NCBI RefSeq assembly: GCF_005239225.2
Contig: NC_133296.1
Span: forward strand, 6,262,001 to 6,326,000
DNA from: Populus alba
Taxonomy: Eukaryota > Streptophyta > Magnoliopsida > Malpighiales > Salicaceae
DNA: 64,000 nucleotides
Reading direction: 5' to 3'
The position numbers were made by a program, and so were the translations under genes. The notes under the pieces were generated by a model. That model was given only the letters and a program-made list of their open reading frames with translations, had not been told where the DNA came from and did no database searches. Within the stretch, counting starts at the first letter, position 1, and each line of letters starts with the position of its first letter. This document shows, piece by piece, positions 1,614 through 62,199 of the stretch.

Positions 1614-2407
1614 TGATTAGTACTTAAAAGTGCATGTTTATCAAGGTTTTATATCATCATTTTGCACTTGAAGTATCAATAACTCCTTAACTAAAGCATG
1701 TTTTATACTATAAGATACCTTAATTTATGGTAAATGCTCATCTTAAATGCAGGCCTATCACATAAATAAAAGGATTGATTAATGAGTTTAAGTATTGAAA
1801 GTGAAAGGACAAAGAGATGGCCAAACTTAGAAAAGAGATGCCGGTGCAGTCCACACCGGAACATTGCTCGGTAATTGGATCATATCTGGAGCTCTAGATC
1901 TTGGATTTAGGTCCATTTTATATGGATGGAAAGGTAAGACAAAGGCCTACAACTTTCATGGGAGCCCAAGATTTAAAAAGGCCGTTTTGAAGTCCAAACT
2001 GAAGGAACAACGAAGAAGTCCGAAGCTGTCCTGCAGCCCAGACACTATTTAGTGTTCAGCCCATATCTTGAGTTCTAGAAGTCCAAATGACCTCATCTTT
2101 TTTTTGTTGGAAAGCTGAGACAATTTCCTAGAACATTCCTGAGGATTCTGGGCAAATTATGATGTTAGCAATGACGTCTTGTTCAGACAAGAAGATAAGG
2201 ATTGTCACCAAGTCAAGATGTGGCCACCCACTCATCAATTAATTAACAAATCAATAGTTCCAAATTTTGGCCTATAAAAGGAGGCACTTACCATGTATTG
2301 AGGCATCTTGGTTTGCAGATCAAGATCATGCTCTTGCTTTCTCTCTTTGTATTGCTTATGTTTTGCTTTCATTAATATCAAGTTTATGCACTTCATTTCC
2401 TTTCCTT
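1614..2407 (+). repeat. LTR A, truncated 5' LTR
   Basis: It begins TGATTAG directly after the AAAGC duplication and aligns to LTRs B and C up to 2407, about the first 794 bases. The rest (R/U5 side) is lost. A TATA box (TATAAAAG) lies at 2273-2280. It groups with LTR C: both lack a roughly 15-bp segment present in B near 6495, and both carry CTTGGATTT and CTGTCCTGC where B has CTCGGATTT and CTGTCTTGC. Confidence 0.9.
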
Positions 2408-2494: not shown

Positions 2495-3511
2495 ATGTTC
2501 AAAGACTCACATGCATTCTGCAAGACTTGTGAAAATTGTTAAAAGTTGGGATCTATTTCAAAACGTCACATGATGCCTTTAAATCCTATTCTTGTCATTG
2601 AGATCTTTGATTGTTGGGGTATAGATTTCATGGGTCCATTTCCTCCATCATTTGGTTTCGTGTACATATTAGTCGCAGTAGATTATGTTTCAAAATAGAT
2701 AGAGGAAATTCCAAGTCGAAACAATGATCACAAAACAGTGATAAAGTTTTTGAAAGACAATATTTTGAGTCGATTTGGAATTCCTCGAGCCATAATAAGT
2801 GATGGTGGAACACATTTCTGTAACAAGCCATTTGCTTCTTTAATGAAGAAATATGGAATCACACACAAAGTTGCCACCCCTTATCACCCTCAGACAAGTG
2901 GACAAGTAGAGCTTGCTAATAGGGAGATCAAACAGATCTTGGAGAAAACGGTGAACCCTAATCGGAAAGACTGGTCTTTAAGACTTAATGATGCACTTTG
3001 GGCTTATCGAACTGCATATAAAACATCATTAGGTATGTCACCTTATAGACTAGTCTATGGAAAACCTTGTCACTTGCCTGTGGAAATTGAACATAAAGCT
3101 TATTGGGCTATTAAAGCTTTCAATTCAAACATTGATGATGCTAGTCAGCTGCGAAAATTGCAAATAAATGAGCTTGAGGAAATTAGAAATGATGCATATG
3201 ACAATTCAAGAATTCATAAAGCAAGAATCAAAGAGTTTCATGACAAGAAAATACTGAGAAAAACATTCAATGTTGGTCAAAAAGTCTTGCTTTATAATTC
3301 TCGACTCCATTTATTTCCTGAAAAACTAAGATCAAGATGGAGCGGTCCTTTTATTGTGAAACATGTGTATCCATATGGGGCCTGTGATATCGAGAATCCA
3401 AAGAATGGCAATGTTTTCAAGGTAAATGGGCATCGGTTGAAAGTTTATTTTGACAATTTTTCAGTTGAAAATGACTCTACTGAATTGAGTGATCCTGTAT
3501 ATAAAGATTGA
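2495..3511 (+). pseudogene. Integrase remnant of the left Athila unit
   Basis: Corresponds to 12609-13625 of the right unit at very high identity. It starts inside the zinc-binding region (CKTCENC), so the N-terminal His pair is gone. Two stops are visible: TAA just after CENC near 2541, and a TGG-to-TAG change near 2697 in the core. The core still shows the second Asp (ISDGG) and the Glu (QVELANRE) of the DD35E triad, followed by the C-terminal chromatin and DNA-binding part ending near YKD. It has no 5' coding partner and cannot make a complete integrase. Confidence 0.92.
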
Positions 3512-3721: not shown

Positions 3722-4270
3722 ATGGACACCACTCTTGAAAAATTGAAAAAGTATTTTCCCGCTCTGCCTCAGAATGCGATTACAAAAATTTACCGTGCTA
3801 GGTGTGAAAGATTGAGGTTGTTAATGAACTATGGAATTCCTGAAGATATTCGTTGGCTGGTTGAAGCAAAGGTCCGATTATCAGGTAAGTCCTCCAATTC
3901 TTTCATTTCACACATGCCTGGAACAGGTAAAAGCACTTTTGCAAAGAAACGTCGTGCAAAACGACTGAAAGTCTGTCACAGATGTGCCAGATGGACTTGT
4001 AATGCGACATGTCGTTCTTTAGGAATGGTATCTGTAAACCGTGAAGATAAGATACAATTCATGAAGGATGGCCTGAGTAAGGGGTCTTTGGATAATCTTT
4101 TGTTAACCCTTGAGACGCATCCTAGTGGAGATGTGCATCGTGTAATTCATGATTTATGGCCACAATTCCATAAAGAACATGATCGACTTAGTCTTGGGAA
4201 TCTGACTAAAAAAGACCCTGTTTGCCAGTTTTTAAGAAAACTGGATGGGAAGCCTATCCCCGACCCATAG
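3722..4270 (+). CDS. Extra Athila ORF, 182-residue cysteine-cluster protein, left copy
   Basis: An ATG-initiated open frame of 182 codons begins about 210 bases after the integrase stop, beyond the RT-IN frame. I do not recognise the function. Visible features: a lysine/arginine-rich stretch (about residues 76-84), then C85-x2-C88-x4-C93-x3-C97, which could bind zinc, then a helical acidic C-terminal half. The segment MPGTGKST near residue 65 looks like a P-loop but lacks the Gly/Ala at the required spacing. It differs from the right copy by six residues (for example Y/H, V/I, K/E) and about four silent changes, so there is no sign of strong constraint since duplication. A truncated third copy lies at 58275-58359. 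Athila elements often carry an extra ORF here; this one does not look like an envelope-type protein. Confidence 0.7.
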   Translation: MDTTLEKLKKYFPALPQNAITKIYRARCERLRLLMNYGIPEDIRWLVEAKVRLSGKSSNSFISHMPGTGKSTFAKKRRAKRLKVCHRCARWTCNATCRSLGMVSVNREDKIQFMKDGLSKGSLDNLLLTLETHPSGDVHRVIHDLWPQFHKEHDRLSLGNLTKKDPVCQFLRKLDGKPIPDP

Positions 4271-4436: not shown

Positions 4437-4443
4437 TATAAAT
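4437..4443 (+). promoter_or_regulatory. TATA-like box upstream of LOG-like segment, left copy
   Basis: TATAAAT followed by a CT-rich stretch and CATCAAA-type leader, as in many plant core promoters. The run of AATAAATAAATAAAG about 70-80 bases upstream could serve as a polyadenylation signal for the preceding ORF. The repeat in the right unit is at 14551-14557. Function is inferred from sequence alone. Confidence 0.3.
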
Positions 4444-4496: not shown

Positions 4497-5165
4497 AAGT
4501 GTGTAGAAACGGCAGATTCCTCAAGTCATCACATAAGAAATATTTGTGTTTTTCGGTGGATCCAGCCCTGGGAAAAGAGAAATAGTTTTTTAGAATCAGC
4601 AAATCATCTTGGTCAAGTACTAGCTGAGAGAAAGATTCATTTAGTGTATGGGGGAGGCAGCCTTGGGTTAATGGGAGGTGTTTCAATGGCTGCATTTTTA
4701 GGAGGCAGTCAAGTTTTGGGGGTTGTCCCCAAAGCTTTAGCAAATGGGGACATCATTGGAAAAACAATTGGAGAGGAACTACAGGTCCCAACAATGTCTG
4801 GCCGACTGAATACCATGTTTAACCATGTTGATGCCTTCATTGCCTTACCAGGTGGTCTGGGCACATTGGAAGAGATCTTTCATATTTCATCTTGGGCCCA
4901 ACTGCACATTCACCATAAACCTATAGGTTTGTTAAATGTTAATGGTTTTTATGATAAGTTGCTATCTTTCCTTGATCAAGCTGTGGAACAGGAATTTCTA
5001 ACATCTTCGGCACGACAAATCATAATCTCTGCTGCTAGTGCTGAACAATTGATTGACCAACTACAATTTTTCATCCCTGTCATTGATCCTTGCATGAGTC
5101 GCCTAGATTGGTCAGCTAAGGAAAGCCATAAAAAGCTTAGATTAGATTTGAGCCTTCATTTGTGA
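4497..5165 (+). pseudogene. LOG: Captured LOG-like cytokinin riboside 5'-monophosphate phosphoribohydrolase, left copy
   Basis: LOG enzymes release active cytokinin bases from their riboside monophosphates. From 4644 the frame shows the glycine-rich VYGGGSLGLMG loop, an Arg in MSGRLNTM, and the family hallmark PGGLGTLEE, then LNVNGFYDKLLSFLD, all in family order. It runs to a stop at 5165 with no intron, although plant LOG genes normally have several. The upstream part has three single-base insertions in homopolymers near 4550-4591 relative to the right copy. These scramble the first Rossmann strand (VFGGSSPG in the right copy) but leave the frame open back to a stop at 4494. There is no ATG before 4671, which lies inside the loop region, so a complete enzyme is unlikely. 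The two copies differ at five residues in the 3' 173 codons. Confidence 0.85.
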
Positions 5166-5340: not shown

Positions 5341-6397
5341 GTAGTAGTTAAAAAAAAAAAAAAACTAACCAACTAACTGTTTTGTTTTTTAAAAAAAGCC
5401 ATTTGGCAAAACTATTATTACTAGGATGGCAGAGTAAAGAGGAATTATTCTTGAGACGCATCTTAGTAAAAATTTTCTAATGGTTATTTGCAAGGCCTAT
5501 TAGAATACTTCTTGAAATATTCAGGTTTACAAACTCTCGCATTGTTATCACTTGATTCTGCTCATATACTCATTTAACAAGTATTATTAAACCTTCATTT
5601 TCACACACACACACTTTAACATATGATTGTGGGTTGCACATTGGATTATTACATTATTTATGTTCTTTTGTTGAAGGTAACAACTAAGGGAAAGGGATGT
5701 TATATAATTTGCAAAAAAAAAAAAAAAATGATAATATTGATGATAATAAAAACGTAGATAAGTTTGGTTTCGTAGCCTCCCTAACCTAAGCAATTAAGCC
5801 CGAAGGGGTGTTTTAACACCTAATACCCTAAAGTCAACTGACTTGGGACCTATTGGCCCAAAGCTTGTTACATGGGTTAAGGAGAAAAGCTTAAGGGAAT
5901 CAAACATTGCACTATCTACGTATCAGTATCTACAACCCGAGTTGTTAAGCTCGTAGGGGTGTCTCAATACCTAATGCCCTAAGACCAACTGGTCTGGGAG
6001 TCATTAGCCTAAAACTCGTTACATGGGTTAAAGATACATTATGTTGTATGTGTATATAAATAAAAATAAAAAAAAGAAAAAAAAGAAAAAAAAAAGTAAT
6101 AATAATAATAATCCTAACCCAAGGAAGTTCACCTTAAACATTTGAACATAATATTGTTTTCTTCCAACAAAAGCCCCATCATCTATGTTTTCATATATTG
6201 AGCACATAAAAAGAAGGTTTATTAATATCTTGTTTAAGAAGTATGAAGCAGTAATATAAATTTAATGAGAGTTTGTTTATCTGGATAGATTAATGGAAGT
6301 TGAATGATGAATGCCTTGCTTTGTGAAACTTGCAAATTGTTTCTCTATTTTAACGCTTTAGATTACTAGGGACTAGTAATAAGCTGGTTGGGGGGTG
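5341..6397 (+). other. 3' non-coding region of left unit with repeated hairpin module
   Basis: There is no coding potential. It contains poly-A runs and a 90-base module present twice, at 5791-5880 and 5941-6030 (offset 151). Each copy has a GGTGT...ACC stem-loop and a second stem: AAGTCAACTGACTT at 5831-5844 and AGACCAACTGGTCT at 5982-5995. The stems differ in sequence but stay complementary. The region ends GGTTGGGGGGTG immediately before LTR B. Confidence 0.65.
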
Positions 6398-8130
6398 TGA
6401 TTAGTACTTGAAAGTGCATGTTTATCAAGGTTTTATATCATCATTTTGCACTTGAAGTATCAATAACTCCTTAACTAAAACATGTTTTATAATAACAAGT
6501 TTGATACTATAAGATACCTTAATTTATGGTAAATGCTCATTTTAAATGCAGGCCTATCACATAAATAAAAGGATTGATTGATGAGTTTAAGTATTGAAAG
6601 TGAAAGGACAAAGAGATGGCCAAACTTAGAAAAGAGATGCCGGTGCAGTCCAAACCGGAACATTGCTCGGTAATTGGATCATATCTGGAGCTCTAGATCT
6701 CGGATTTAGGTCCATTTTATATGGATGGAAAGGTAAGACAAAGGCCTACAACTTTCATGGGAGCCCAAGATTTAAAAAAGCCGTTTTGAAGTCCAAACTG
6801 AAGGAACAACGAAGAAGTCCGAAGCTGTCTTGCAGCCCAGACACTATTTAGTGTTCAGCCCATATCTTGAGTTCTAGAAGTCCAAATGACCTCATCTTTT
6901 TTTTGTTGGAAATCTGAGACAATTTCCTAGAACATTCCTGAGGATTCTGGGCAAATTATGATGTTAGCAATGACGTCTTGTTCAGACAAGAAGATAAGGA
7001 TTGTCACCAAGTCAAGATGTGGCCACCCACTCATCAATTAATTAACAAATCAATAGTTCCAAATTTTGGCCTATAAAAGGAGGCACTTACCATGTATTGA
7101 GGCATCTTGGTTTGCAGATCAAGATCATGCTCTTGCTTTCTCTCTTTGTATTGCTTATGTTTTGCTTTCATTAATATCAAGTTTATGCACTTCATTTCCT
7201 TTCCTTTACTTAGTTAACTTCTTTCTCATTTATGTTCTTATCTTGTTCATCTATGTTTCTTTCTTTCATTATGTTTAGCTAAGTTAATTATGTCAAGGTG
7301 AAAAGGGTACACTAATGGTGTAAGAATAAGTATAATATAAACTTAAACATGGACCTTAACGTTGGATACTAACATGTTTTATATTTGTTATCTTGTTCAC
7401 TTTTTAATACTTTGCTTGTTAAATGGTTAATCTAGATTTATGTTGTATAACACTTGGTACAAACAAATACTTGGTACTTTCATAGCCCATACTGTATGGG
7501 TATAACCGACACCTGAGCTATGAAAGGAACTTGATTTGTTGTTAACATAAGTTATAATCATGAATGCCTGCCAACATTTACAAGTATTAGCTTTATTCGA
7601 ATAAGATAACTAATGTAATCATGTTAACAATTTATAATCTGATTGGAACCTCCTTTATGTGTGGTTTTCCAATTGAGTAATAAGAGTTTATACTATACTT
7701 GTTTGAAGTACCATTAGTGGATCCTCTAACCTTGACATTTATTTTTATCGTTGTTTAATCCTTACATTAATCTTTTCAACTCAAAGTTCTCATTAATTTC
7801 TTCCTTCTCTTCTTTATTATTGTTGTTGTTATTGTTATTATTATTTATTATTATCTGTTCATAAACTCAGTATATAGGCTGGAAACCTGTGACCCGATTT
7901 TTTAGATCATTTCTCAGGTATAACAACGCCACGTACTGAGTATTATTATTATTATTATTACTATTACTAGTACTACTATTGTTATTATTATTGTTATTGT
8001 TATTGTTGTGTTGTTATTTATAAATTTATACAATTAAACCTCTCTGTGGTTCGACCCCGGTCTTGCCGGGTTATTTATTACTTCGACACTCCTGCACTTG
8101 GGAAAAGACATCAAGCTTTTGATCGTGTCA
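6398..8130 (+). repeat. LTR B, middle LTR
   Basis: 1733 bases, from TGATTAG to GTGTCA. The TATA box TATAAAAG is at 7072-7079, and an ATT/GTT trinucleotide tract lies near 7935-8010. It has substitutions and a roughly 15-bp segment near 6495 not found in A or C. Across 7340-8040 it has about nine single-base homopolymer expansions relative to LTR C. At four of these sites the independent LTR at 61788-63706 agrees with C, so B carries the extra base. Confidence 0.93.
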
Positions 8131-8154: not shown

Positions 8155-8363
8155 GGTAAATTCTTGTATAAAATTATAATATTTAATTTATTTTCTCTTT
8201 TCACTTTTCATTTTATCTAACTTTTGTTTTCTTTGTTTTGTTTTGTTTCTTTTTCTTCTATTTTCTTTTCTTCCTTTTATTCTCTTTTTACACGTGCATG
8301 CGAGTTTGGTCACGTACATTAAGTGGTCGACTTTGTAGGGTATCCTCATCATTTTCAGAAAAT

Positions 8364-10655
8364 ATGGCCGAAGAAGATAATCAATCACTTCATAATGAGA
8401 ATAATGAGAATAACCGTATGAGAACACTTAGAGACCACATGAATCCCACAAGAACAAGTGCACCCTCATGCATAGTTTTCCCTCCTGATGCATCTCATTT
8501 TAATTTTAAGCCAGACATTATTCAACTTTTACCATCTTTTCATGGCTTAGATTTAGAAAATCCATACTTGCATTTAAGGGAATTTGAGGAGGTCTGTAAT
8601 ACATATAATGACTCAAATTGTAGCATGAACACCATTCGATTAAAGCTTTTTCCTTTTTCATTAAAAGATAAAGCTAAAACATGGCTATAAAATTTAAGAC
8701 CAGGACCCATTCGTGCTTGGGATGAAATGCAACAACAATTTTTAAAGAAGTTTTTTTCATCTCACAGAACAAATTCTTTCAAAAGACAAATCATCACTTT
8801 CACTCAAAAACCAGGAGAAACATTTTACCAATGTTGGGATAGGTATTGAGATTTGCTTAATACTTGCCCACATCATGGTTTTGAAACATGGAGATTGGTT
8901 TCACATTTTTATGAAGGTTTAACACCTAGAGATAGGCAAATGGTTGAATTGATGTGCAATGGAACTTTCGAAGATAAAGACCCTAATGAAGCAATGGAGT
9001 ACCTAGACTTGCTAGCCGAAAATGCTCAAAATTGGGATACCACAGGTACTTATGAGGCACCAAGTAAAACTCAACCTCATACATCTAGTGGAGGTATGCA
9101 CAACCTTAGGGAAGATCATGACCTCCAAGCCAAGTTTGCATCTTTAGCTAGAAAAGTCGAGGCACTAGAATTGAAAAAGAGTGGTCAATTAAAATCTGTT
9201 CAAGACATTGTGTGTCAAATCTGTGAAACAAATGAACATGCAACCAATGATTGTCCAACTTTGCCTTCTTTTAAGGAATGCCTCCATGAACAAGCCCATG
9301 CTTTAAACAGTTTCCAAAGACCCAACCATAACCCATACTCACAAACGTACAACCCTGGTTGGAGAAATCACCCAAATTTCAGTTGGAAGAGTGATAGAAA
9401 CAATGCACAAACTTCACAGCCACCGTTTCAAGCACATCATAATTTTCAAAATTCTCATGGATATGCACCTCCTTATGCTCCACCTCCTAGAAGAAATCTT
9501 GAGGAAACATTGCATGCATTCATTGAAAAGCAGGAGACAATCAACACTCAACTTGCTCAAAGCATGACAGATTTTAAAGATGCTCTTGCAAAATTAACAT
9601 CTGCTCTTAGTTTCCAAGAGAAAGGTAAGTTTCCATCTCAACCACAGCAAAATCCAAAAGGGCAATACAATGCAAATGCGAGTAGTTCTGGAAACCAACA
9701 CATGGATCAAGTCAAATCAATCATCACTCTTCGTAGTGGTAAGGTTATTGAAAAACCTATTCTTGAACCTTGTGAGAAAGATGATGAGTCTATCTCTGAG
9801 GGTAAGGAAGGGGTTGAACATGAACATTGCAAAGAGAAGGCTGATTCCCCGCCAGCACTTCCATTTCCTCATGCCATGACCAAACAAAGGAAAGTCAATC
9901 ACAACTCTGAAATCTTTGAAACTTTCAAACAGGTAAGGATCAATATACCTTTATTGGATGCTATTAAACAGGTACCTTCCTATGCTAAATTTTTGAAAGA
10001 TTTGTGCACTGTGAAGAGAAAACTGAATGTGAAAAAGAAAGCTTTTTTAGCCGAACAAGTAAGTGTCATTCTTCAAAACAATAATGCTTTGAAATATAAA
10101 GACCCTGGTTGTCCTACAATTTCTTGCTTTATTGGAGAACATAAAATTGAAAGAGTCTTACTTGATCTTGGAGCTAGTGTGAATTTACTTCCATATTCAG
10201 TCTTTCAAAGTCTCAATCTAGGTGAGTTAAAACCAACCACTATAACTCTTTTACTTGCCGATAGATCTGTAAAAGTGCCTAGAGGAATAGTTGAGGATGT
10301 GTTAGTACAAGTTGATAAATTCATTTATCCTGTGGATTTTGTTGTCTTGGATACACAACCTGTTGAAGCATGTAATTCAATTCCTGTCATTTTAGGACGT
10401 CCATTTCTTGCCACTTCTAATGCATTGATTAATTGTAGGAATGGACTGATGAAGCTATCATTTGGAAACATGACATTGGAGATGAATATTTTCAACATTT
10501 ACAAGCAACCTGGAGATGATAATGATTTACAGGAAGTGGACTTTATTGAAAAATTAGTTCATGATCAATTTCAAACCACTTCCAGTGAAACTGAGATTGA
10601 TGAATCTGATGATTTGCAAATGGTCTACTTTCAGGAATCAAAGACATGCAATTAG
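8364..10655 (+). pseudogene. gag-pro: Athila gag-protease, interrupted by stops
   Basis: It begins at ATG 8364 (MAEEDNQSLHN) after a 209-base leader. Capsid-like sequence is followed by the zinc knuckle C-x2-C-x4-H-x4-C at 9213-9254, a Gln/Asn/Pro-rich linker, and an aspartic protease with DLGASVNLLP (catalytic Asp codon 10164-10166) and ILGRPFLATS. Three stops break the single frame: TAA at 8688, TGA at 8847 (the minus-strand relative has CGA Arg here), and TAG at 10653 before RT. The TAA is also present in the relative near 61240, so it predates both copies. Without readthrough no Gag-Pol could be made. Capsid, nucleocapsid and protease would act in cytoplasmic particles. Confidence 0.9.
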
Positions 10656-13625
10656 AGACCACAAATTGAAGAATTGCCACCACGATCAATTGAGCCCATA
10701 CCCTCAAGTGTTCAACCACCAAAACCTGAATTGAAGCCGTTACCATTTAATCTCAAATACTCATTTTTGGGAGAAAATAAAACTTTTCCGGTAATAATCT
10801 CTTCCAAACTTAATGCACATCAAGAAGGTAAGTTATTACAGATTTTGAAAATACACAAAAATGCATTAGGATGGACCATAGCTGACATAAAAGGAATTAG
10901 CCCTTTGATTTGCACACACAGGATTTATTTGGAGGAAAATGCTAAACCCTCTAGAGAAATGCAACAAAGGCTTAATCCTAATATGAAAGAAGTAGTGAAA
11001 AATGAAGTCATTAAGCTTCTAGATAATGGAATCATTTATCCTATTTCTGACAGCAAATGGGTAAGTCCTACCCAAGTTGTACCCAAAAAGTCTGGAGTCA
11101 CTGTGATAACGAATGAGAAAAATGAGTTAATTCCAACTAGGACTGTTACTGGTTGGCGCATGTGCATTGACTATAGGAAACTTAATTCAATGACTAGAAA
11201 AGATCATTTCCCTTTACCTTTCATGGACCAAATCCTAGAAAGAGTTGCAGGTCATGAATTTTATTGTTTCCTAGATGGCTATTCAGGTTACAATCAAATT
11301 GAAATTGCATTGGAAGATCAAGAGAAGACTACTTTCACATGTCCATTTGGTACTTTTGCATATCGAAGGATGCCTTTTGGGTTATGTAATGCACCAGCCA
11401 CGTTTCAAAGATGCATGCTTAGCATATTCAGTGATATGGTTGAACGTTTTCTTGAAATTTTTATGGATGATTTTTCTGTTTTTGGTGATTCATTTAATGA
11501 TTGTTTGACTAACTTAGAAAAGGTTTTGAGCAGGTGTGAAGAGAAGAATCTTGCATTGAATTGGGAAAAATGTCACTTTATGGTAACAAACGGCATTGTA
11601 CTTGGTCATATTGTTTCATCAAAAGGAATTGAGGTTGACAAATCTAAAATCGAGTTAATTTCCAACTTACCAACACCAAAATCTGTTAAAGATGTTAGAT
11701 CATTCTTAGGACATGCTGGTTTTTACAGAAGGTTCATCAAAGATTTTAGTGTAATATCTAAGCCTTTGAGTAACCTTCTAACAAAGGATAATATTTTTGA
11801 ATGGACTGAACATTGTGAAGAAGCCTTTGTGAAACTTAAAAACTTGCTTACTTCTGCTCCTGTCATTCAACCTCCTGATTGGTCATTACCTTTTGAAATA
11901 ATGTGTGACGCTAGTGATTATGCCGTGGGTGCTGTCTTGGGACAAAGAAAAGATAAGAAACCTTATGTGATTTACTATGCAAGTAAAACTTTAAATAGTG
12001 CTCAAATGAATTACACCACCACTGAAAAAGAATTACTTGCAGTAGTATTTGCTTGTGATAAATTCAGATCTTATCTTGTTGGCTCACCTGTTGTTGTTTT
12101 TAGTGATCATGCAGCATTGAAATATCTTCTTTCTAAGAAAGATTCTAAGGCTAGACTGGTGCGGTGGATTTTGTTACTTCAAGAATTTGATATCACAATC
12201 AAAGACAAGAAAGGCACCGAAAATGTTGTTGCAGATCATTTGTCAAGATTGACAACAGATTCGAAATCTGACATCACACCAATCGATGACTACTTTCCCG
12301 ATGAATCTTTATTTTCCGTTTCTACGATGCCTTGGTTTGCTAATATTGTTAATTTTCTTGTTTCAGGACAATTGCCAGCTCATTGGAGTACCCAAGAAAA
12401 AAGAAAGTTCTTGAACGAAGTGAAGAACTTTTATTGGGATGACCCTTATTTATTCAAATATTGTCCTGATCAAATATTTCGAAGATGCATTCCTGACAAT
12501 GAGGTAAGTAGTGTCATTAAATTTTGTCATTCTGAGGCATGTGGGGGTCATTTCTCATCAAGAAAGACAACTGCAAAAATCTTACAATGTGGATTTTATT
12601 GGCCCACCATGTTCAAAGACTCACATGCATTCTGCAAGACTTGTGAAAATTGTCAAAAGTTGGGATCTATTTCAAAACGTCACATGATGCCTTTAAATCC
12701 TATTCTTGTCATTGAGATCTTTGACTGTTGGGGTATAGATTTCATGGGTCCATTTCCTCCATCATTTGGTTTCGTGTACATATTAGTCGTAGTAGATTAT
12801 GTTTCAAAATGGATAGAGGCAATTCCAAGTCGAAACAATGATCATAAAACAGTGATAAAGTTTTTGAAAGACAATATTTTGAGTCGATTTGGAATTCCTC
12901 GAGCCATAATAAGTGACGGTGGAACACATTTCTGCAACAAGCCATTTGCTTCTTTAATGAAGAAATATGGAATCACACACAAAGTTGCCACCCCTTATCA
13001 CCCTCAGACAAGTGGACAAGTAGAGCTTGCTAATAGGGAGATCAAACAGATCTTGGAGAAAACGGTGAACCCTAATCGGAAAGACTGGTCTTTAAGACTT
13101 AATGATGCACTTTGGGCTTATCGAACTGCATATAAAACATCATTAGGTATGTCACCTTATAGACTAGTCTATGGAAAACCTTGTCACTTGCCTGTGGAAA
13201 TTGAACATAAAGCTTATTGGGCTATTAAAGCTTTCAATTCAAACATTGATGATGCTAGTCAGCTGCGAAAATTGCAAATAAATGAGCTTGAGGAAATTAA
13301 AAATGATGCATATGACAATTCAAGAATTCAAAAAGCAAGAATCAAAGAGTTTCATGACAAGAAAATACTGAGAAAAACATTCAATGTTGGTCAAAAATTC
13401 TTGCTTTATAATTCTCGACTCCATTTATTTCCTGGAAAACTAAGATCAAGATGGAGCGGTCCTTTTATTGTGAAACATGTGTATCCATATGGGGCCTGTG
13501 ATATCGAGAATCCAAAGAATGGCAATGTTTTCAAGGTAAATGGGCATCGGTTGAAAGTTTATTTTGATAATTTTTCAGTTGAAAATGACTCTACTGAATT
13601 GAGTGATCCTGTATATAAAGAATGA
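10656..13625 (+). CDS. pol: Athila reverse transcriptase, RNase H and integrase
   Basis: An open frame of about 990 codons, in phase with gag-PR but separated by the TAG at 10653, so it has no start of its own. Order: RT with [36 protein letters not shown] and the active-site box FMDD at 11460-11471; RNase H with [14 protein letters not shown] and [11 protein letters not shown]; integrase with an HHCC zinc region (HSEACGGH...CKTCENC) and the triad Asp 12738, Asp 12915, Glu 13023, spaced D-x58-D-x35-E. The C-terminal part contains [15 protein letters not shown], a chromodomain-free tail typical of Athila. All catalytic residues I can check are present. It would copy element RNA into DNA and insert it if expressed as a readthrough fusion. 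Confidence 0.93.
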
Positions 13626-13835: not shown

Positions 13836-14384
13836 ATGGACACCACTCTTGAAAAATTGAAAAAGTATTTTCCCGCCCTGCCTCAGAATGCGATTACAAA
13901 AATTTACCGTGCTAGGTGTGAAAGATTGAGGTTGTTAATGAACCATGGAATTCCTGAAGATATTCGTTGGCTGATTGAAGCAAAGGTTCGATTATCAGGT
14001 GAGTCCTCCAATTCTTTCATTTCACACATGCCTGGAACAGGTAAAAGCACTTTTGCAAAGAAACGTCGTGCAAAACGACTGAAAGTCTGTCACAGATGTG
14101 CCAGATGGACTTGTAATGCGACATGTCGTTCTTTAGGAATGGTATCTGTAAACCGTGAAGATAAGATACAATTCATTAAGGATGGCCTGAGTAAGGGGTC
14201 TTTAGATAATCTTTTGTTGACCCTTGAGACGCATCCTAATGGAGATGTGCATCGTGTAATTCATGATTTATGGCCACAATTCCATAAAGAACATGATCGA
14301 CTTAGTCTTGGGAATCTGACTAAAAAAGACCATGTTTGCCAGTTTTTAAGAAAACTGGATGGGAAGCCTATCCCCGACCCATAG
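13836..14384 (+). CDS. Extra Athila ORF, 182-residue cysteine-cluster protein, right copy
   Basis: Same protein as at 3722-4270, with six replacements. The cysteine cluster CHRCARWTCNATC and the basic stretch before it are unchanged. The start is the ATG of MDTTLEKLKKYF; an upstream in-frame extension (13776-13835) has no ATG and reads through leader sequence. Function unknown. It stays open in both long copies, which argues that it was intact when the element was active. A role as an accessory nucleic-acid-binding protein is conceivable from the basic and Cys-rich middle, but this is a guess. Confidence 0.7.
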   Translation: MDTTLEKLKKYFPALPQNAITKIYRARCERLRLLMNHGIPEDIRWLIEAKVRLSGESSNSFISHMPGTGKSTFAKKRRAKRLKVCHRCARWTCNATCRSLGMVSVNREDKIQFIKDGLSKGSLDNLLLTLETHPNGDVHRVIHDLWPQFHKEHDRLSLGNLTKKDHVCQFLRKLDGKPIPDP

Positions 14385-14550: not shown

Positions 14551-14557
14551 TATAAAT
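14551..14557 (+). promoter_or_regulatory. TATA-like box upstream of LOG-like segment, right copy
   Basis: TATAAAT followed by a CT-rich leader; counterpart of 4437-4443. Function inferred. Confidence 0.3.
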
Positions 14558-14610: not shown

Positions 14611-15276
14611 AAGTTTGTAGAAACGGCAGGTTCCTCAAGTCATCACATAAGAAATATTTGTGTTTTCGGTGGATCCAGCCCTGGGAAAGAGAAATAGTTT
14701 TTAGAATCAGCAAATCATCTTGGTCAAGTACTAGCTGAGAGAAAGATTCATTTAGTGTATGGGGGAGGCAGCCTTGGGTTAATGGGAGGTGTTTCAATGG
14801 CTGCATTTTTAGGAGGCAGTCAAGTTTTGGGGGTTGTCCCCAAAGCTTTAGCAAATGGGGACATCATTGGAAAAACAATTGGAGAGGAACTACAGGTCTC
14901 AACAATGTCTGACCGACTGAATACCATGTTTAACCATGTTGATGCCTTCATTGCCTTACCAGGTGGTCTGGGCACATTGGAAGAGATCTTTCATATTTCA
15001 TCTTGGGCCCAACTGCACATTCACCATAAACCTATAGGTTTGTTAAATGTTAATGGTTTTTATGATAAGTTGCTATCTTTCCTTGATCAAGCTGTGGAAC
15101 AGGAATTTCTAACATCTTCGGCACGACAAATCATAATCTCTGCTGCTAGTGCTAAACAATTGATTGACCAACTACAATCTTTCATCCCTGTCATTGATCC
15201 TTGCATGAGTCGCCTAGATTGGTCAGCTAAGGAAAGCCGTAAAAAGCTTAGATTAGATTTGAGCCTTCATCTGTGA
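14611..15276 (+). pseudogene. LOG: Captured LOG-like cytokinin-activating enzyme gene, right copy
   Basis: The less damaged of the two copies. In one frame from 14611 it reads through ICVFGGSSPGK, the first Rossmann strand and phosphate-binding loop of LOG proteins, then a single TAG at 14695-14697, then open to 15276 through VYGGGSLGLMG, MSDRLNTM (Arg kept, the usual following Lys replaced by Leu) and PGGLGTLEE. The frame is bounded upstream by a stop at 14608, with no ATG before 14782, so the native start is missing. The only interruption besides the start is this nonsense codon. No introns are present. The two copies differ by six substitutions in the 3' 520 bases, all transitions, five of them replacements, consistent with neutral decay of methylated DNA. 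A sequence search should identify the donor LOG paralogue. Confidence 0.87.
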
Positions 15277-16535
15277 AACCTTGTGTCTTTTGTGTTATTA
15301 ATAGCATATTATTTTGTTTTGTTACTTCTTATATTTGTTTAAGTGTGTTTCAGATTTGTCATTGTTCGCTGTTTCAGGTGATGTCTTCTATACTCTATCT
15401 TTCTACCTTAGGACATTGAGGACAATGTCTCGTTTTGGTTGGGGGGAGAGGGTAGTAGTTTAAAAAAAAAAAAAAAAAACCTAACCAACTAACTATTTTT
15501 GTTTTTTTAAAAAAAAACCATTTTGGCAAAACTGTTATTACTAGGATGGCAGAGTAAAGATGAATTATTCTTGAGACGCATCTTAGTAAAAATTTTCTAA
15601 TGGTTATTTGCAATATTCATAACAAGGCCTATTAGAATACTTCTTGAAATATTCAGGTTTACAAACTCTCATATTGTTATCACTTAATTCTGCTCATATA
15701 CTCATTTAACAAGTATTATTAAACCTTTATTTTCACACACACACTTTAACATATGATTGTGGGTTGCACATTGGATTATTACATTATTTATGTTCTTTTG
15801 TTGAAGGTAACAACTAAGGGTAAGGGTTAGTATATAATTTGTAAAAAAAAAAAATGATGATAATATTGATGATAATAAAAACGTAGATAAGTTTGGTTTC
15901 GTAGCCTCCCTAACCTAAGCAATTAAGCCCGAAGGGGTGTTTTAACACCTAATACCCTAAAGTCAACTGACTTGGGAGGTATTGGTCCAAAGCTTGTTAC
16001 ATGGGTTAAGGAGAAAAGCTTAAGGGAATCAAACATTGCACTATCTACGTATCAGTATCTGCAACCCGAGTTGTTAAGCTCGTAGGGGTGTCTCAACACC
16101 TAATGCCCTAAGACCAATTGGTCTGGGAGTCATTAGCCTAAAACTCGTTACATGGGTTAAAGATACATTATGTTTTAAGTTGTATGTGTATATAAATAAA
16201 ATTAAAAAAAAAAAAAGAAGAAAAAAAAAAGAGTAATAATAATAATAATCCCAACCCAAGGAAGTTCACCTTAAACATTTGAACATAATATTGTTTTCTT
16301 CCAACAAAAGCCCCATCATCTATGTTTTTCATATATTGAGCACATAAAAAGAAGGTTTATTAATATCTTGTTTAAGAAGTACGAAGCAGTAATATAAATT
16401 TAATGAGAGTTTGTTTATCTGGATAGATTAATAGAAGTTGAATGATGAATGCCTTGCTTTGTGATACTTGCAAATTGTTTCTCTATTTTAACGTTTTAGA
16501 TTACTAGGGACTAGTAATAAGCTGGTTGGGGGGTG
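15277..16535 (+). other. 3' non-coding region of right unit with hairpin module
   Basis: Counterpart of 5166-6397. The stem plus G-tract recurs at about 15412-15448. The 90-base module is at 15920-16009 and 16070-16159, again offset by 151. The stems are AAGTCAACTGACTT (15960-15973) and AGACCAATTGGTCT (16111-16124). The GGTGT...ACACC stem of the second copy is fully paired here where the left unit has a G-U pair. It ends GGTTGGGGGGTG before LTR C. Confidence 0.65.
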
Positions 16536-18241
16536 TGATTAGTACTTAAAAGTGCATGTTTATCAAGGTTTTATATCATCATTTTGCACTTGAAGTATCA
16601 ATAACTCCTTAACTAAAGCATGTTTTATACTATAAGATACCTTAATTTATGGTAAATGCTCATCTTAAATGCAGGCCTATCACATAAATAAAAGGATTGA
16701 TTGATGAGTTCAAGTATTGAAAGAGAAAGGACAAAGAGATGGCCAAACTTAGAAAAGAGATGCCGGTGCAGTCCACACCGGAACATTGCTCGGTAATTGG
16801 ATCATATCTGGAGCTCTAGATCTTGGATTTAGGTCCATTTTATATGGATGGAAAGGTAAGACAAAGGCCTACAACTTTCATGGGGAGCCCAAGATTTAAA
16901 AAGGCCGTTTTGAAGTCCAAACTGAAGGAACAACGAAGAAGTCCGAAGCTGTCCTGCAGCCCAAACACTATTTAGTGTTCAGCCCATATCTTGAGTTCTA
17001 GAAGTCCAAATGACCTCATCTTTTTTTTGTTGGAAAGCTGAGACAATTTCCTAGAACATTCCTGAGGATTCTGGGCAAATTATGATGTTAGCAATGACGT
17101 CTTGTTCAGACAAGAAGATAAGGATTGTCACCAAGTCAAGATGTGGCCACCCACTCATCAATTAATTAACAAATCAATAGTTCCAAATTTTGGCCTATAA
17201 AAGAAGGCACTTACCATGTATTGAGGCATCTTGGTTTGCAGATCAAGATCATGCTCTTGCTTTCTCTCTTTGTATTGCTTATGTTTTGCTTTCATTAATA
17301 TCAAGTTTATGCACTTCATTTCCTTTCCTTTACTTAGTTAACTTCTTTCTCATTTATGTTCTTATCTTGTTCATCTATGTTTCTTTCTTTCATTATGTTT
17401 AGCTAAGTTAATTATGTCAAGGTGAAAAGGGTACACTAATGGTGTAAGAATAAGTATAATATAAACTTAACATGGACCTTAACGTTGGATACTAACATGT
17501 TTTATATTTGTTATCTTGTTCACTTTTAATACTTTGCTTGTTAAATGGTTAATCTAGATTTATGTTGTATAACACTTGGTACAACAAATACTTGGTACTT
17601 TCATAGCCTATACTGTATGGTATAACCGACACCTGAGCTATGAAAGGAACTTGATTTGTTGTTAACATAAGTTATAATCATGAATGCCTGCCAACATTTA
17701 CAAGTATTAGCTTTATTCGAATAAGATAACTAATGTAATCATGTTAACAATTTATAATCTGATTGGAACCTCCTTTATGTGTGGTTTCCAATTGAGTAAT
17801 AAGAGTTTATACTATACTTGTTTGAAGTACCATTAGTGGATCCTCTAACCTTGACATTTATTTTTATCGTTGTTTAATCCTTACATTAATCTTTCAACTC
17901 AAAGTTCTCATTAATTTCTTCCTTCTCTTCTTTATTATTGTTGTTGTTATTGTTATTATTATTATTATTATCTGTTCATAAACTCAGTATATAGGCTGGA
18001 AACCTGTGACCCGATTTTTTAGATCATTCTCAGGTATAACAACGCCACGTACTGAGTATTATTATTATTATTACTATTACTAGTACTACTATTGTTATTG
18101 TTATTGTTATTGTTATTGTTGTGTTGTTATTTATAATTTATACAATTAACCTCTCTGTGGTTCGACCCCGGTCTTGCCGGGTTATTTATTACTTCGACAC
18201 TCCTGCACTTGGGAAAAGACATCAAGCTTTTGATCGTGTCA
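16536..18241 (+). repeat. LTR C, 3' LTR
   Basis: 1706 bases, TGATTAG to GTGTCA, followed by the AAAGC target duplication at 18242-18246. The TATA box TATAAAAG is at 17196-17203. It shares the short form near position 90 and several single-base variants with LTR A. Confidence 0.93.
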
Positions 18242-23992: not shown

Positions 23993-25591
23993 TGTTGTGA
24001 TGTCATGGTCGCACAAATTAATTACCCTAGTTTCAAACACAACACACAAGATAGTATAGAGCAAGCAAGGGGTTGATTCCATGAGGAAGGTTTAAATCAG
24101 ATTTTTATGCTAGATGATATGCAATTTAGGGGGGGTTTGGAAGTTATCTAGGCTAAAGCAAAAGAAAATAGAAAACTATCAAATGAAATTTAATAGAATC
24201 AAAAAATTATCAAGAGAACAAACCTTGGTCACAAGCACACATCTACCTACAGAAACCAGAACTGATCATGGAAATGAAACATCAATTTATATTCTGAATA
24301 TTTATCTCTTCATAAAATTGGTTAGTTAACAGATCCACCATATAACTAACCCTAACCATCAAACAACCACAATATATGCATTAGTAATTTAATTCAATAG
24401 CAGCCTTAAGAACTAGATAAATTGATTAATCAAGAAAACATAAATGTCCGCAGTCTATATTTGATTTGATTGAATGTTTTTCCTAAGATTAATAACGTAG
24501 ATCTGCCACAATTAAAACTCAATTGCTTCACAAGTTCATATACCACAACTGCAGTTTTGATATTAAACTTAGCAATAGATTGTCTACAATAATAACTTAG
24601 AGTCAGCTCTAACAATTAAAATAAACAATTATAGGAAAAATAAGCATAGGAGAACAAACATATTCATCATATAAATTGAAAAGAAAAGATAAAATAAATC
24701 TTATAGTTCTACAAATCCAAAGGTTTTTGTGTCCTTGCAACCAAGAAAATGGGTTTAGCCTTGTATATTTGTTGAACAACTAATCAAAAAGAAGGAGGAA
24801 TGCTTAATTTTAGGTTTCTTAAAGGAGGGGGGGCATTTTCTCCTCTTGGATGGTTGCTCCCCTTCTCTGCTCTTATTCTTTTTATATCCTAGGAGACCCT
24901 AGTCTCTATTTTACAAAATAGTCATTCCTTAAGTAGATTGTTTACATTTAAGTACTTCAATAACTATTTTCCTAAAAAAAAAGAAATAACCTTACGTGAA
25001 ATATTCAAGATTTGACTTACAGGAGCTAAATTGCTGAAATAAAAACTTGGATATCGGTTTAGATGCTTTGGAATATAATTTGGGCTTGTTTCTTTACAAA
25101 ACCTGTTTGTTGGCAGAATTCAATTGTCATATTTGAAAAATCATTTTTCCTTTATATGACATTGTTTTTTGCTAAAATTTGGAGCGTTGATAGGCACTTG
25201 AGTCAGTAATCCAACAAAATTAAGTTTGCATCAAGTGGACTTCCTTAGCTCCAGATATTTAAGTCAGAATGGTTGAAGATCAACACTAGCAGATTGTAAG
25301 ATTTGACTTTGAAGGCTGCAATTTCCAAGCTCTTCTTTTTCTTTTTTTTCTTGCCTTAGATTTTCATAAAGGTATAGACGTTGGCTTTTTAATTCCACTA
25401 GAATCACTTCATTTCGACTTCTAGAGCTCACGCTCTGCAAAAAACATCGGCTGAAGGTCAAATATGCCAATTACCTCCAATTTACTTTTTTTTTTGTATA
25501 TTTCATCCAAAAGTGCCTTTAAAACATAAAACAAAGAAGGCAAAACACTAGTTAAATATGGGTAAAACTATCAAATAATATGGTTGCATCA
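23993..25591 (-). repeat. Candidate solo LTR interrupting a plant mobile domain pseudogene
   Basis: The segment can be bounded by TG near 23993-23998 and by GGTTGCATCA at 25591, about 1.6 kb. Its text (for example the 24005-24150 stretch with AGCAAGCAAGG and a G-run) is of a non-coding, LTR-like kind. The candidate flanks (GGCGG and AGCGG) match at four of five bases only, so the boundaries are uncertain. Confidence 0.35.
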
Positions 25592-25912
25592 GGTGGTGAT
25601 TCTACAACACCTTGACAACATTCTTTGATAAGGTTGCATGAGTGTATCTACCTTGTAGTTATCGACGTTGGTTTTTATAAGATCAGTCAATTACCTCTAA
25701 TTTACTCCTTTTTGCATCTTTCATTCAAAAGTGCCTTCAAAATATAAAACATAGAAGGCAAAACACTAGTTAAATATGGGTGAAACTATCAAATAATATG
25801 GTTGCATCAAGCGGTGATTCTATAACACCTTGACAACATTCTTTGATGGGGTTGCATGAGTGTATCTGCCTTGTAGTTATCGACATTAGTTTTTATGAGA
25901 TCAGTCAATTAC
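25466..25912. repeat. Tandem duplication, period 218 bp
   Basis: TGGTTGCATCA occurs at 25581 and 25799 within two near-identical units. Each unit holds the last 120 or so bases of the candidate LTR plus the start of the adjoining plant mobile domain sequence (CTTGACAACATTCTTTGAT), so the duplication happened after the LTR arrived. Confidence 0.8.
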
Positions 25913-27442
25913 ATGGTAAACATCTTGACCATGCATTGATTGTAGTTTTAGTTGAGCTATGGAGGCGCAATATACATACCTTTCATCTATGTGTTGGTTT
26001 CATAACACCCACACTCCAAAATGTCGCTATTTTGACCAGTCTTTTGATAAATAAAACCCTTGTGACAAGACATGAAAGGTCAATTGATAAAGATGTTTTA
26101 TGTGATTATCTATTAGGATGAATGCCTCTAGCCAATGTTTTTATGGGGAATGCATCAAATTGACATGGTTGAACATAAATTTTAAAACCCCCTCGCAAAT
26201 GCGATAAAGGACCAATTGATTATATATGTTCAGGCATACATATTACATATATTTAGAGGTTTTATACTGTTGGCATTATAGTACCGTTGTTCTTTCTGAC
26301 ACTACTTGAGGATTTTCAATCCATTCCTAATTACCAATTGATTATATATATTCAGGCATACATATTACATATATTTAGAGGTTTTATACTGTTGGCATTA
26401 TAGTACCGTTGTTCTTTCTGACACTACTTGAGGATTTTCAATCCATTCCTAATTACAATTGGGGATGGTATATACTTTCATATCTATACCGATAGCTATG
26501 TAAACATGTTTAAAACAATGAAGACAAATTATCAAATATATATTATTTCTTCAAGTATAATTATTTTAAATTATTTGAATATTAGAATTAATTACATTTT
26601 AAATACTAACCTATAATTATCAATGCTGATTAATATAACTCTAGGCATGAGAGGATATTCATATAAAGCTTCCAAAGAGCTGAAATAATAATATGTTTGA
26701 TATTGTCACTTAGAATCCATTGGTTCTAGGTAAAAAAAAATATGATAACTTTGTGGCTTGTCATGTTAGATGATGTGGGGCTAGACATTTCAAAGTAAAT
26801 CTCACTTATGTCAACGAGTTTTACTAGGATGAGTTGGATGCGTAACAACCATATCAAGTATGCGTTACAAATGCATTGAATTTTTTATTATTTGAATCTG
26901 AATTTTTTAGTTTTGATTTGTTAGCTAATATAATTCTTTCATACATTTTGATAGGTTATATTGATATCATATACATAGGACTTGATACTTTTAGCTTCAC
27001 CTATATGTCGTGAGGGATCTTACCTTTGGTTAGCACAAGTCTCGTTGTATTGCTTTGACATTGTTGATATACATTGTCCAAATTGGGTAATGCAACAGTT
27101 TGGATTATCTTAACATATACCAGTATATTGATATTGGTTATGAGCTGCATAATAGTAGTTACCAAGTTAAGCGTGAGGGGAATTGGTTAGTGAGTTATGT
27201 ATCTTACCTAGATCTATGAAAAGCTAAAAGAGATCGTATTTTTAAGGAGTGACATCTGATAATTCATGTAGATAGTTAAATGAGATGGTATATGTCCATT
27301 ATTCATCATTTTTATCCATGTAATCTAATGTATTTTGCGCCCCAATATCTGAAACAAAATCAATTGATATGCAATATTGTTTTACATATAACATTTATTA
27401 AATATCATATTAATGTTACTATGGATGATGCCTACTTATTTG

Positions 27443-31417: not shown

Positions 31418-32696
31418 ATGATGATGATGATGATGAGGACTTTGAAATGTAAGATTAATGTGAAGATTAAACAAGGATTAAATAATTGTTAATGTTAAAG
31501 GATCCACTAATAGTATTAGAAATAAGTATAGTATAAACTATTTTTATTAATCAACTAAGAACCACACACAAAGGAGGTTCCAATCGGATGATTTATCCTT
31601 AATAGTTCATTATAAATTTTTAACATGATCATATTAATTATCTTATTTTAGTAACACCATACTTTTAAATATCATTAAGAATTCATGATGCTAACTTATA
31701 TTAACAATAAATCAAGTTCCATTCATAGCATAGGTGTAGGTTATACCATACGGTTGGCTATGAAAGTGCCAAGCATTTGTTGTACCAAGTGTTATATAAC
31801 ACAAATCTAGATTAACTATTTAACAAGCAAGGTATTAAGAATTAGTAAGACAAAAAGATAAGACATGTTAATAACAAACTTTCTTGGATATAAACATTGA
31901 AGTCCATGTTAAGTTTATATTATACCTATTCTAACACCATTAGTGAAACCTTTTCACCTTGACATAATAAACTTAGCTAAACATAATGAAGAAGAGAAAC
32001 ATAAATAAACAACATAAAAACATAAGTATAGTAAAGGAAATGAAAAGTATAAACAAGAGATTAAGAAAAATATAACATAAAATAGAATTTAAACATTACA
32101 AAAATATAAAGAAATAAATAAAGAACATGATCTTGATCTGAACAACCAAAATGCCTAAATGCATGGCAAATGCCTCCTTTTGTAGGCCAAAATTAAGGTC
32201 ATTTGGACTTCTAGAACTCAGGATATGGGTTAAACACTAAATAGTGTCTGGGCTGCAAGACAGATTCGGACTTCTCCGTTGTTTCTATAATTTGGACTTG
32301 AAAACGACTTTTTTTAAATCTTGGACTCCACATGAAAGTTTTAGGCCTATGTCTTAACTATCCATCTATATAAAGCAGATCTAAATCCAAGATCTACACC
32401 TCCAGATATGACCCAATTACCGAACAGTATTCCAGTTAGGACTGAACCAACATTTCTTTTCTAAGTTTGACCCTCTCGTTGTCCTTTCAATTTCAGTGTT
32501 TAAACTCATCAATCAATCCTTTCATTTATGATAGGTCTGTATTTAAAATGAATATTTACCATAAATTAAAGGTATCTTATATTATTAGATATGTTATTAT
32601 AAAACATGCTTTAGATAAGGAGTTATTGATACTTCAAGTGCAAAATAATGATATAAAACCTTGATAAAAATGCACTTTTAAGTACTAATCACAAAG

Positions 32697-50521: not shown

Positions 50522-51021
50522 NNNNNNNNNNNNNNNNNNNNNNNNNNNNNNNNNNNNNNNNNNNNNNNNNNNNNNNNNNNNNNNNNNNNNNNNNNNNNNN
50601 NNNNNNNNNNNNNNNNNNNNNNNNNNNNNNNNNNNNNNNNNNNNNNNNNNNNNNNNNNNNNNNNNNNNNNNNNNNNNNNNNNNNNNNNNNNNNNNNNNNN
50701 NNNNNNNNNNNNNNNNNNNNNNNNNNNNNNNNNNNNNNNNNNNNNNNNNNNNNNNNNNNNNNNNNNNNNNNNNNNNNNNNNNNNNNNNNNNNNNNNNNNN
50801 NNNNNNNNNNNNNNNNNNNNNNNNNNNNNNNNNNNNNNNNNNNNNNNNNNNNNNNNNNNNNNNNNNNNNNNNNNNNNNNNNNNNNNNNNNNNNNNNNNNN
50901 NNNNNNNNNNNNNNNNNNNNNNNNNNNNNNNNNNNNNNNNNNNNNNNNNNNNNNNNNNNNNNNNNNNNNNNNNNNNNNNNNNNNNNNNNNNNNNNNNNNN
51001 NNNNNNNNNNNNNNNNNNNNN
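50522..51021. other. Assembly gap, 500 Ns
   Basis: Exactly 500 unknown bases, probably a fixed-size placeholder rather than a measured distance. It follows a tandem repeat, which is the likely cause. Confidence 0.97.
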
Positions 51022-58261: not shown

Positions 58262-58274
58262 CCAAGCACATGAT

Positions 58275-58359
58275 GGCACCAAGCACAGTAAATTTTTGTA
58301 ATCACATTCTGAGACAGAGCGGGAAAATACTTTTTTAATTTTTCAAGAGTGGTGTCCAT
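58275..58359 (-). pseudogene. Truncated extra Athila ORF
   Basis: ATG at 58359. The first 28 or so codons match the 182-residue protein (MDTTLEKLKKYFPAL), with Ser, Val, Cys and Trp replacements further on, before diverging at the CACTA junction. The GGTCAAATGGCGGATAA leader is conserved upstream (58481-58500 on the complement). Confidence 0.75.
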
Positions 58360-58576
58360 TTTCAACTGAGAATTGGGGGAGAGATTCAAAGAAAGCAGAA
58401 AGAGCAAAGAATTGCACAAATATATACACAGATATCAGTTATCATGGGAAACTGAAAGAACCGACTTAAGAGTCACGGAGTACCGTTATCCGCCATTTGA
58501 CCGGGGTGAGAGAAACTAGCAAAACAAAACTCACACCAAAAAGGAACACAAAAAAAAAATTGTGAGAAAAACAAAA

Positions 58577-59352
58577 TAATCAACCTTTATCTAAAAGATC
58601 ATTCAAACCAATGGATTCATTTTCACTAGGAAACTCATCAAAGTAAGCTTTCAAACGATGTCCATTTACCTTCAAAACATTGTCATTCTTTGAATTCTCA
58701 ATATCAAGGGCCCCATAAGGATACACATGTTTCAAAATAAATGGACCGCTCCATCTTGATCTTAATTTTTCAGGAAATAAATGGAGTCGAGAATTATAAA
58801 GCAAAACTTTTTTACCAGTATCAACTTTTTGACAATTTTCACAAGTTTTGCAGAATGCATGCGTGTCCTTGAATATGGTGGGCCAATAAAATCCTTTTTG
58901 TAAGATTTTTGCAGTCGTCTTTTTTAATGAGAATTGACTCCCACATGCTTCAGAATGATAAAGTTTAATGACACTACTTACCTCATTATCCGGAATGCAT
59001 CTTTGAAATTTTTTATCAGGACAATATTTGAATAAGTTAGGGTCATCCCAATAAAAGTTCTTCACTTCGTTCAAAAACTTTCCTTTGTCTTCAGTACTCC
59101 AATGAGCTAGCAAATCTCCTGAAGCAAGAAAATTGATATTTTTAGCAAACCAAGGCATTGAACTAAGAGAAAGTAAGGATTCATCAGGAGAGTAATCATC
59201 AATTGGTGGGATGTCAAATGTCAAATCTATTGTCACTCTTGACAAAAGATCGACATCAACATTTTTGGTGCCTTTTTCATCCGTGATTTCTTCCTGAGAA
59301 TAAATCATTTGCAAATCTTCAGATTCATCCAACTCAATATTACTCAAAGTAG
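58577..59352 (-). pseudogene. Collapsed RNase H-integrase fragment
   Basis: The minus-strand frame joins the protease-RT linker ([11 protein letters not shown]) straight to the RNase H end ([15 protein letters not shown]), deleting RT. It continues through the integrase zinc region (HSEACGSQF, where the second His is replaced by Gln, then CKTCENCQK), then jumps to the integrase tail ([32 protein letters not shown]). The DD35E core is missing. The deletions are clean and in frame. It ends near 58577 with LLDKG. Confidence 0.88.
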
Positions 59353-59359
59353 ATTCAAG

Positions 59360-61564: not shown

Positions 61565-61763
61565 ATTTTCTGAAAATGATGAGGATACCCTACAAAGTCT
61601 ACCACTTAATATACGTGACTAAACACTCATGCATATGTAGAAAGAGAATAAAAGGAAGAAGAAAACAAAAGAAAAAGAAACAAAACAAAAGAAACAAAGT
61701 TAGATACAAGAAAAGTGAAAAGAGAAAACAAAAGAAATACTATAATTTGTACAAGAATTTACC

Positions 61764-61781: not shown

Positions 61782-61787
61782 AAAACT

Positions 61788-62168: not shown

Positions 62169-62199
<31 letters not shown>

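Follow-up and report, generated by a model that had tools for sequence, protein, structure and literature searches.

Retrotransposons are usually treated as needing gag-pol alone. Extra open reading frames (ORFs) between integrase and the 3' LTR are, of course, a placement typical of Athila elements, and Steinbauerova et al. are said to have noted, in 2011, a similarity to LOGL4 in two Athila-like elements. In 2022, a LOG domain (YgdH) was reported in Gypsy consensus sequences of Citrus sinensis and C. clementina, and, with one filter off, in a Gypsy consensus of P. trichocarpa as well; the available text of that paper credits Steinbauerova et al. (2011) for the YgdH domain in elements (PMC9289625). 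The same source describes orchid Ty3/Gypsy elements that captured an AlkB m6A demethylase (PMC9289625). In the available part of a review of extra ORFs, no mention of LOG was found (PMC7264820).

Thus, a LOG cargo is not itself new, because the YgdH domain in Gypsy elements is already in print. The original prediction, made from the DNA considered here, held that a hormone-activating enzyme as a resident passenger would be notable. That novelty has to be qualified, given the earlier report of the domain (PMC9289625). In the open-access literature, supplements aside, no report was found of selection on an element LOG, or of a single LOG clade with relatives in Xanthoceras, Acer, Reevesia and Parasponia. 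Nor, within the same scope, was any report found of a changed pocket (Lys100, Glu125) combined with kept Arg and Glu and a basic/LxLxL tail, or of an element ORF matching plant-virus nucleic-acid-binding proteins.

A LOG gene resident in a Ty3 family

Here, the window (the whole stretch of 64,000 nucleotides of Populus alba that was analysed) holds an open frame of 222 codons at 4497-5165 on the forward strand. It matches Pfam Lysine_decarbox (E 4.7e-37) and NCBIfam TIGR00730 (E 9e-44), and a search of PDB sequences returned Arabidopsis At2g37210 (E 2.9e-55); the segment has both a family profile match and the LOG fold. Chance similarity to LOG was considered as well and is ruled out by profile, structure and genome-wide evidence. 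A second copy, 93% identical over 222 positions, lies at 14611-15276, the two being spaced by 10,114 bases. Both sit between integrase and a 3' LTR, inside the boundaries of a Ty3 element, as had been proposed.

The element has LTRs and the gag, protease, RT, RNase H, integrase order of Ty3 LTR retrotransposons; "Athila" is a label that we assume for it. In unit 1, a truncated LTR (1614-2407, forward strand; the 5' part, by blastn 99% identical to LTR 16536-17330 and 97% to 6398-7206) is followed by most of integrase (2495-3511, forward; tblastn to POL residues 652-989 at 97%, Pfam rve), an ORF resembling viral nucleic-acid-binding proteins (NABP-like), LOG, and the LTR that separates unit 1 from unit 2 (6396-7866, forward, 3' end approximate), which the purine run TTGGGGGG precedes. 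Everything from mid-LTR to integrase is missing, including gag, protease, RT and RNase H, and the gap is bridged by 87 bases of other sequence that link the truncated LTR to integrase. This short filler at the junction (2408-2494) contains an inverted repeat seen by eye.

Unit 2 is more complete. Gag and protease (8187-10655, forward) occupy open stretches at 8187-8690 and 8850-10655, with Pfam Asp_protease_2 and a tblastn identity of 90% to a third copy; the first stretch, without a Pfam match, is assigned to gag from its position. Pol (10656-13625, forward) follows, with RT, RNase H, integrase zinc-binding region and integrase core in Ty3 order (Pfam RVT_1, RT_RNaseH, Integrase_H2C2, rve). 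Then come the NABP-like ORF, LOG, and the 3' LTR (16534-17980, forward, 3' end approximate), after which the leader of a further unit runs to 18242. The K2P distance between this LTR and LTR 6396-7866 is 0.0091. Sequence differences between the two units amount to 0.4-3.3% in the stretches compared; the units therefore belong to a single array and cannot count as two independent lines of evidence.

The third, divergent copy (58267-63707, reverse strand; blastn 79-91%) comprises an LTR, gag-protease and parts of pol. It breaks off inside the NABP-like ORF (residues 16-51, at 78%), and no LOG match lies at that place in the window. An isolated LTR of the same kind at 31433-32693 (reverse; blastn 78-88% to the array LTRs, no element match on either side) is likely a solo LTR. 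Outside the element lie two short tandem duplications (25491-25912 and 26211-26461, copies 218 and 122 bases apart). The window also has 500 N at 50522-51021, either an assembly gap or a withheld stretch.

Both LOG copies of the window are broken. The start position reads ACG in each (4509-4511 and 14623-14625). The unit 2 gene (14623-15276, forward) has an in-frame TAG at codon 25, and the unit 1 gene (4509-5165, forward) departs from it by three one-base length differences within 4549-4586, leaving about a dozen residues near the first strand scrambled and out of register. The absent start codon and the damaged first strand had both been read correctly from the sequence.

The agreement of two units had been taken to show that the segment is a resident of the element. 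As evidence, this agreement is weak, because the units belong to one array and unit 1 lacks everything from mid-LTR to integrase, but residency is upheld by a survey of the genome. When the genome was searched with the LOG protein, 1787 candidates came up at first look and 150 of them were scored; each of the 150 covers the full query, and 136 are free of in-frame stops. At 30 loci taken with 1.5 kb flanks, the NABP-like ORF lies upstream in the same orientation in every case, integrase was found at 25, the start of a downstream LTR at 28, and all three features at 25. The order of the extra ORFs after integrase, NABP-like and then LOG, holds in 30/30, on many contigs. When copies were instead ranked by the 216-base spacer between the two ORFs (1211 candidates, 40 of them scored), 39 of the 40 adjoined a LOG. 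Since these 30/30 loci and 39/40 spacer copies share their context, the LOG segment is a fixed part of the element. It is the resident, intronless gene of a high-copy Ty3 family with the order integrase, NABP-like ORF, LOG, 3' LTR. The search had been proposed with the original prediction, and it turned up neither a lack of other copies nor a segment lying outside element boundaries.

It had also been supposed that a master copy may be intact, and intact copies do exist. Among the best 70 of the 150 scored by protein, 67 start with ATG and 62 are open from the ATG to the tail, a share biased upward because the ranking is by protein score. Among the 39 spacer-ranked copies, 36 start with ATG, 21 are open from ATG to end, and 18 are not intact; this share is free of protein-score bias and favours young copies. 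The samples overlap by about eight sequences, and both include the two window copies. With host-type queries of 80 and 48 residues, the genome yielded no host donor LOG. Of the 1159 and 1114 candidates, 150 were scored, and the matches had 48-52% and 65-69% identity, as would be expected for element copies. This search says nothing about the donor's identity, because intron-split host exons would score lower.

Selection, relatives and the neighbouring reading frame

Mutations that arise after insertion are expected in one copy only; changes passed through transposition are common to several. In the 65 protein-ranked LOG copies, private changes (26 synonymous to 66 nonsynonymous) differ from those common to at least three copies (24 to 12; p=0.0001). 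In the spacer-ranked sample the counts are 24 to 69 for private and 16 to 14 for common changes (p=0.0072), or 39 to 120 and 19 to 18 before the register filter (p=0.0023). When the same alignments are read in frames +1 and +2, the effect is gone (p 0.33 to 1). With codon position 3 alone, the spacer-ranked sample gives p=0.19, which is not significant.

These samples were reduced in known ways. Five of 70 protein-ranked copies were lost for an extra codon; among spacer-ranked copies, 1/40 had no LOG match and 8/39 had a match not beginning at the expected distance. The register filter then kept 65/65 protein-ranked, 26/31 spacer-ranked and 48/50 NABP-like copies. The variant counts treat related copies as separate events and ignore gene conversion, and the spacer sample is small. 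Some stop variants recur, in two copies for LOG and in up to five for the NABP-like ORF, and the lost LOG ATG is common to both window units. Pairwise dN/dS averages 0.23 for LOG and 0.26 for the NABP-like ORF, and close copies give higher values than distant ones. Private LOG changes look neutral, and shared ones are depleted of amino acid changes in the coding frame alone; these are signs of purifying selection.

The NABP-like ORF shows such signs across its copies as well (48/50 copies: private 22 to 74, shared 23 to 14; p=3e-5). It reads 182 amino acids from an ATG in both units, at 3722-4270 (forward; Pfam Viral_NABP 4.4e-7, Carla_C4 4.5e-6, both above the gathering score) and at 13836-14384 (forward; 1.8e-7 and 5.9e-6, both above the cut-off). 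At E 0.001, Viral_NABP matches 33/35 and Carla_C4 29/35 of its aligned homologues; 504 relatives were found, 120 of these being listed. Full-ORF alignments were obtained for 52 of 70 copies, and 36 of the 52 contain no stop. A PDB sequence search gave no match up to E 1, and the AlphaFold model (pLDDT 53) is too poor for fold comparison. Viral proteins of this kind are reported to act as silencing suppressors, and p12 of chrysanthemum virus B, in the available text of the same source, as a transcription factor causing hyperplasia (PMC12172455).

Each ORF may also have its own promoter. TATAAAT stands before LOG in both units (4437-4443 and 14551-14557, forward), in unit 1 starting 72 bases ahead of the start position and followed by a pyrimidine-rich stretch, in unit 2 at the same relative position. 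It recurs in 70/70 copies, at 72 bases in 60 of them (shuffle chance 7%; the copies are closely related). A similar TATA-like box with a pyrimidine-rich stretch lies ahead of the NABP-like ORF, near 13770. Separate transcripts for the two extra ORFs are, from these motifs, possible.

Intact LOG relatives of 212-217 amino acids, at about 60% identity and mainly from Populus, occur among the matches listed (the best 120 of 7803 and of 7999). Sources named besides Populus are Xanthoceras, Acer, Reevesia and Parasponia, the Acer and Parasponia records being shorter; some Populus relatives are annotated as LOGL10 genes. Full-length LOG frames on short metagenome contigs would fit an absence of introns. 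A maximum-likelihood tree of 59 rows places the element-type LOGs in one clade against 10 plant host LOGs, with support 100/100; when 13 bacterial rows were tried as outgroup and 11 were used, support is 99/95. The label "element-type" rests on direct context for P. alba, on indirect context for Xanthoceras, and on clade and tail for the other rows. In Xanthoceras, gag-like pieces were spotted by eye in gene models P0213 and P0225, and a LOG (P0254) and an NABP-like protein (P0086) have adjacent locus tags and equally long contigs. Three further LOG/NABP-like pairs (P0058/P0275, P0007/P0290, P0118/P0267) come from the same source on equally long contigs, where coincidence is possible.

A single LOG capture would be the simplest reading of the tree, which has few host sequences and a long element branch. 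A scan of bacterial and archaeal genomes gave, for the 80 of 239 relatives that were kept, bacterial titles throughout and 35-46% identity, and this gap between bacterial and plant LOGs argues against a recent transfer from bacteria. Part of the tree's outgroup was drawn from these rows. No relative turned up when viral contigs were scanned with the alignments of the NABP-like ORF and of LOG. Presumably, a spliced plant LOG mRNA was taken into an element, probably once for the element-type LOGs sampled. Later evolution inside elements would have added a basic and LxLxL tail, and in the main clade the base pocket would have lost its canonical Lys and Glu.

Active site, tail and possible roles

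The catalytic Arg and Glu are kept in 36/36 element-type rows. The PGGxGTxxE motif is altered in its PGG triplet in three of the 36 and in its second Gly in one. The base/prenyl pocket proposed for the Corynebacterium LOG, whose residues were inferred from structure, consists of Met96, His97, Lys100, Glu125 and Trp129 (PMC4979012). In the eight Populus rows, Met and Trp are kept without exception and the other three are changed without exception: His97 is replaced by Ser (or Phe), Lys100 by Leu or Met, and Glu125 by His (or Tyr). In Sapindales-type element LOGs, all five are kept (6/6 rows).

Most element-type LOGs outside the Sapindales-type group also end in a tail, a basic stretch followed by LxLxL or DLNxxP. 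It is present in 131 of 178 listed rows (the 47 without it include truncated and fused models as well as Sapindales-type rows), in 21/25 full-length representatives below 80% identity, and in 0/8 host LOGs. By shuffling, LxLxL has a chance of 1.3%; in the predicted LOG model the tail is disordered. The LxLxL tail has the look of an EAR motif, a type of sequence to which TOPLESS-type corepressors bind, and the basic stretch is a possible NLS that could bring the protein into the nucleus.

The original prediction called the gene cytokinin-activating. As stated this is not supported, because the base pocket is altered: the catalytic pair is kept, but the three pocket equivalents are changed throughout Populus. 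A repurposed LOG fold appears at least as likely as cytokinin activation, and we incline, by a little, to an element LOG that is a repurposed nucleotide phosphoribohydrolase or has a mixed function. Intact copies would make a LOG-fold nucleotide phosphoribohydrolase with the Arg/Glu pair, whose disordered tail resembles a nuclear-import and an EAR-type corepressor-binding motif. By cleaving or binding a nucleotide, this protein would change the host state in the cell making element RNA. The nucleotide would not be, or not only be, the classical cytokinin ribotide. Together with its virus-type zinc-finger neighbour, the LOG might form a small host-manipulation module. Residency, intact copies, signs of selection, the LOG fold, the kept catalytic pair, the changed pocket and the recurrent tail were established computationally, and enzyme activity, substrate, nuclear action and benefit to the element are inferred.

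A bolder form of this reading, which we put forward tentatively and regard as doubtful, describes a rosid retroelement lineage with a virus-like host-manipulation module next to gag-pol. In it, a zinc-finger NABP homologue would accompany a LOG rebuilt as a nuclear, corepressor-recruiting nucleotide glycosidase that acts on something other than cytokinin, such as an immune signalling nucleotide or another N6-modified AMP.

Unlikely, though to be taken seriously, is classical cytokinin activation, where free cytokinin released from its ribotide would bring a division or meristem state to the cells that pass on new copies. The conserved fold and catalytic residues, selection at the protein level, and the complete pocket of the six Sapindales-type rows would all be expected of such an enzyme. 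These Sapindales-type LOGs could themselves be ordinary cytokinin enzymes, because their pocket is canonical and they have no LxLxL tail. The changed Populus pocket speaks against it, as does the report that Ala substitutions at the AMP-binding and catalytic residues, with the exception of Ser19, almost abolish activity (PMC4979012). A changed pocket is, however, no proof of a changed role, because a mycobacterial LOG has other residues at three of these pocket positions (PMC4979012). Further, LOGs with identical key residues can, in the available text of another report, differ in product (PMC11593424).

Rather improbable is a use without catalysis, in which the LOG fold serves as scaffold or nucleotide sensor and takes the basic/LxLxL tail to the nucleus. 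The altered pocket and the recurrence of the tail in 21 of 25 divergent representatives would suit it, but a pure scaffold would have no need of the Arg and Glu kept in all 36 rows.

An inert passenger, a processed LOG copy inserted once and hitch-hiking without function, would account for the broken window copies and the 18 broken spacer-ranked ones. It is very improbable given the depletion of shared amino acid changes in the coding frame and the intact relatives at about 60% identity, some from other plant families. That a host LOG gene or an assembly artefact was mistaken for element cargo, as the LOGL10 annotations might suggest, is scarcely credible against the same element context at all 30 loci on many contigs, the lack of intron breaks and a clade separate from 10 host LOGs. 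Even jointly, inert passenger and artefact deserve very little weight.

Comparison with known systems

The LOG of this element is a host-derived enzyme fold apparently kept by selection on the element, with at least 150 full-length scored copies in one genome. It has relatives in several plant families, and its neighbour is homologous to viral proteins known elsewhere as silencing suppressors. With a selected LOG beside a viral-type ORF, the question whether plant retroelements act on hormone, nucleotide or silencing pathways in the manner of viruses becomes directly testable. Among the annotated "LOG genes" of Populus, and probably of other plants too, some are element genes.

The Gypsy elements of Citrus and P. 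trichocarpa share with the P. alba element the YgdH domain, the superfamily and, in part, the host genus, and they are probably of the same lineage. Their report, in its available text, is a line of domain detection, whereas intactness, selection, phylogeny, pocket, tail and neighbouring ORF are considered here. The cysteine-rich nucleic-acid-binding proteins of carlaviruses, allexiviruses and mandariviruses resemble the neighbouring ORF in having a basic stretch followed by a Cys/His cluster and in matching both Pfam profiles. The element ORF differs from them in its location in a retrotransposon and in N- and C-terminal parts without a match; it is known here by its sequence.

The plant enzymes At2g37210 and At5g11950 share with the element LOG its fold, the PGGxGTxxE motif and the catalytic Arg and Glu. 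The element LOGs, in contrast, are intronless and form their own clade in the sample; in most of them the base pocket is altered and the C terminus extends into an additional tail. The orchid AlkB elements offer the same overall design, a plant Ty3 element that has fixed a host enzyme for modified adenine in RNA or nucleotides. The enzyme is a different one, and in vitro activity is on record for the orchid AlkB, whereas the LOG is known here as a sequence.
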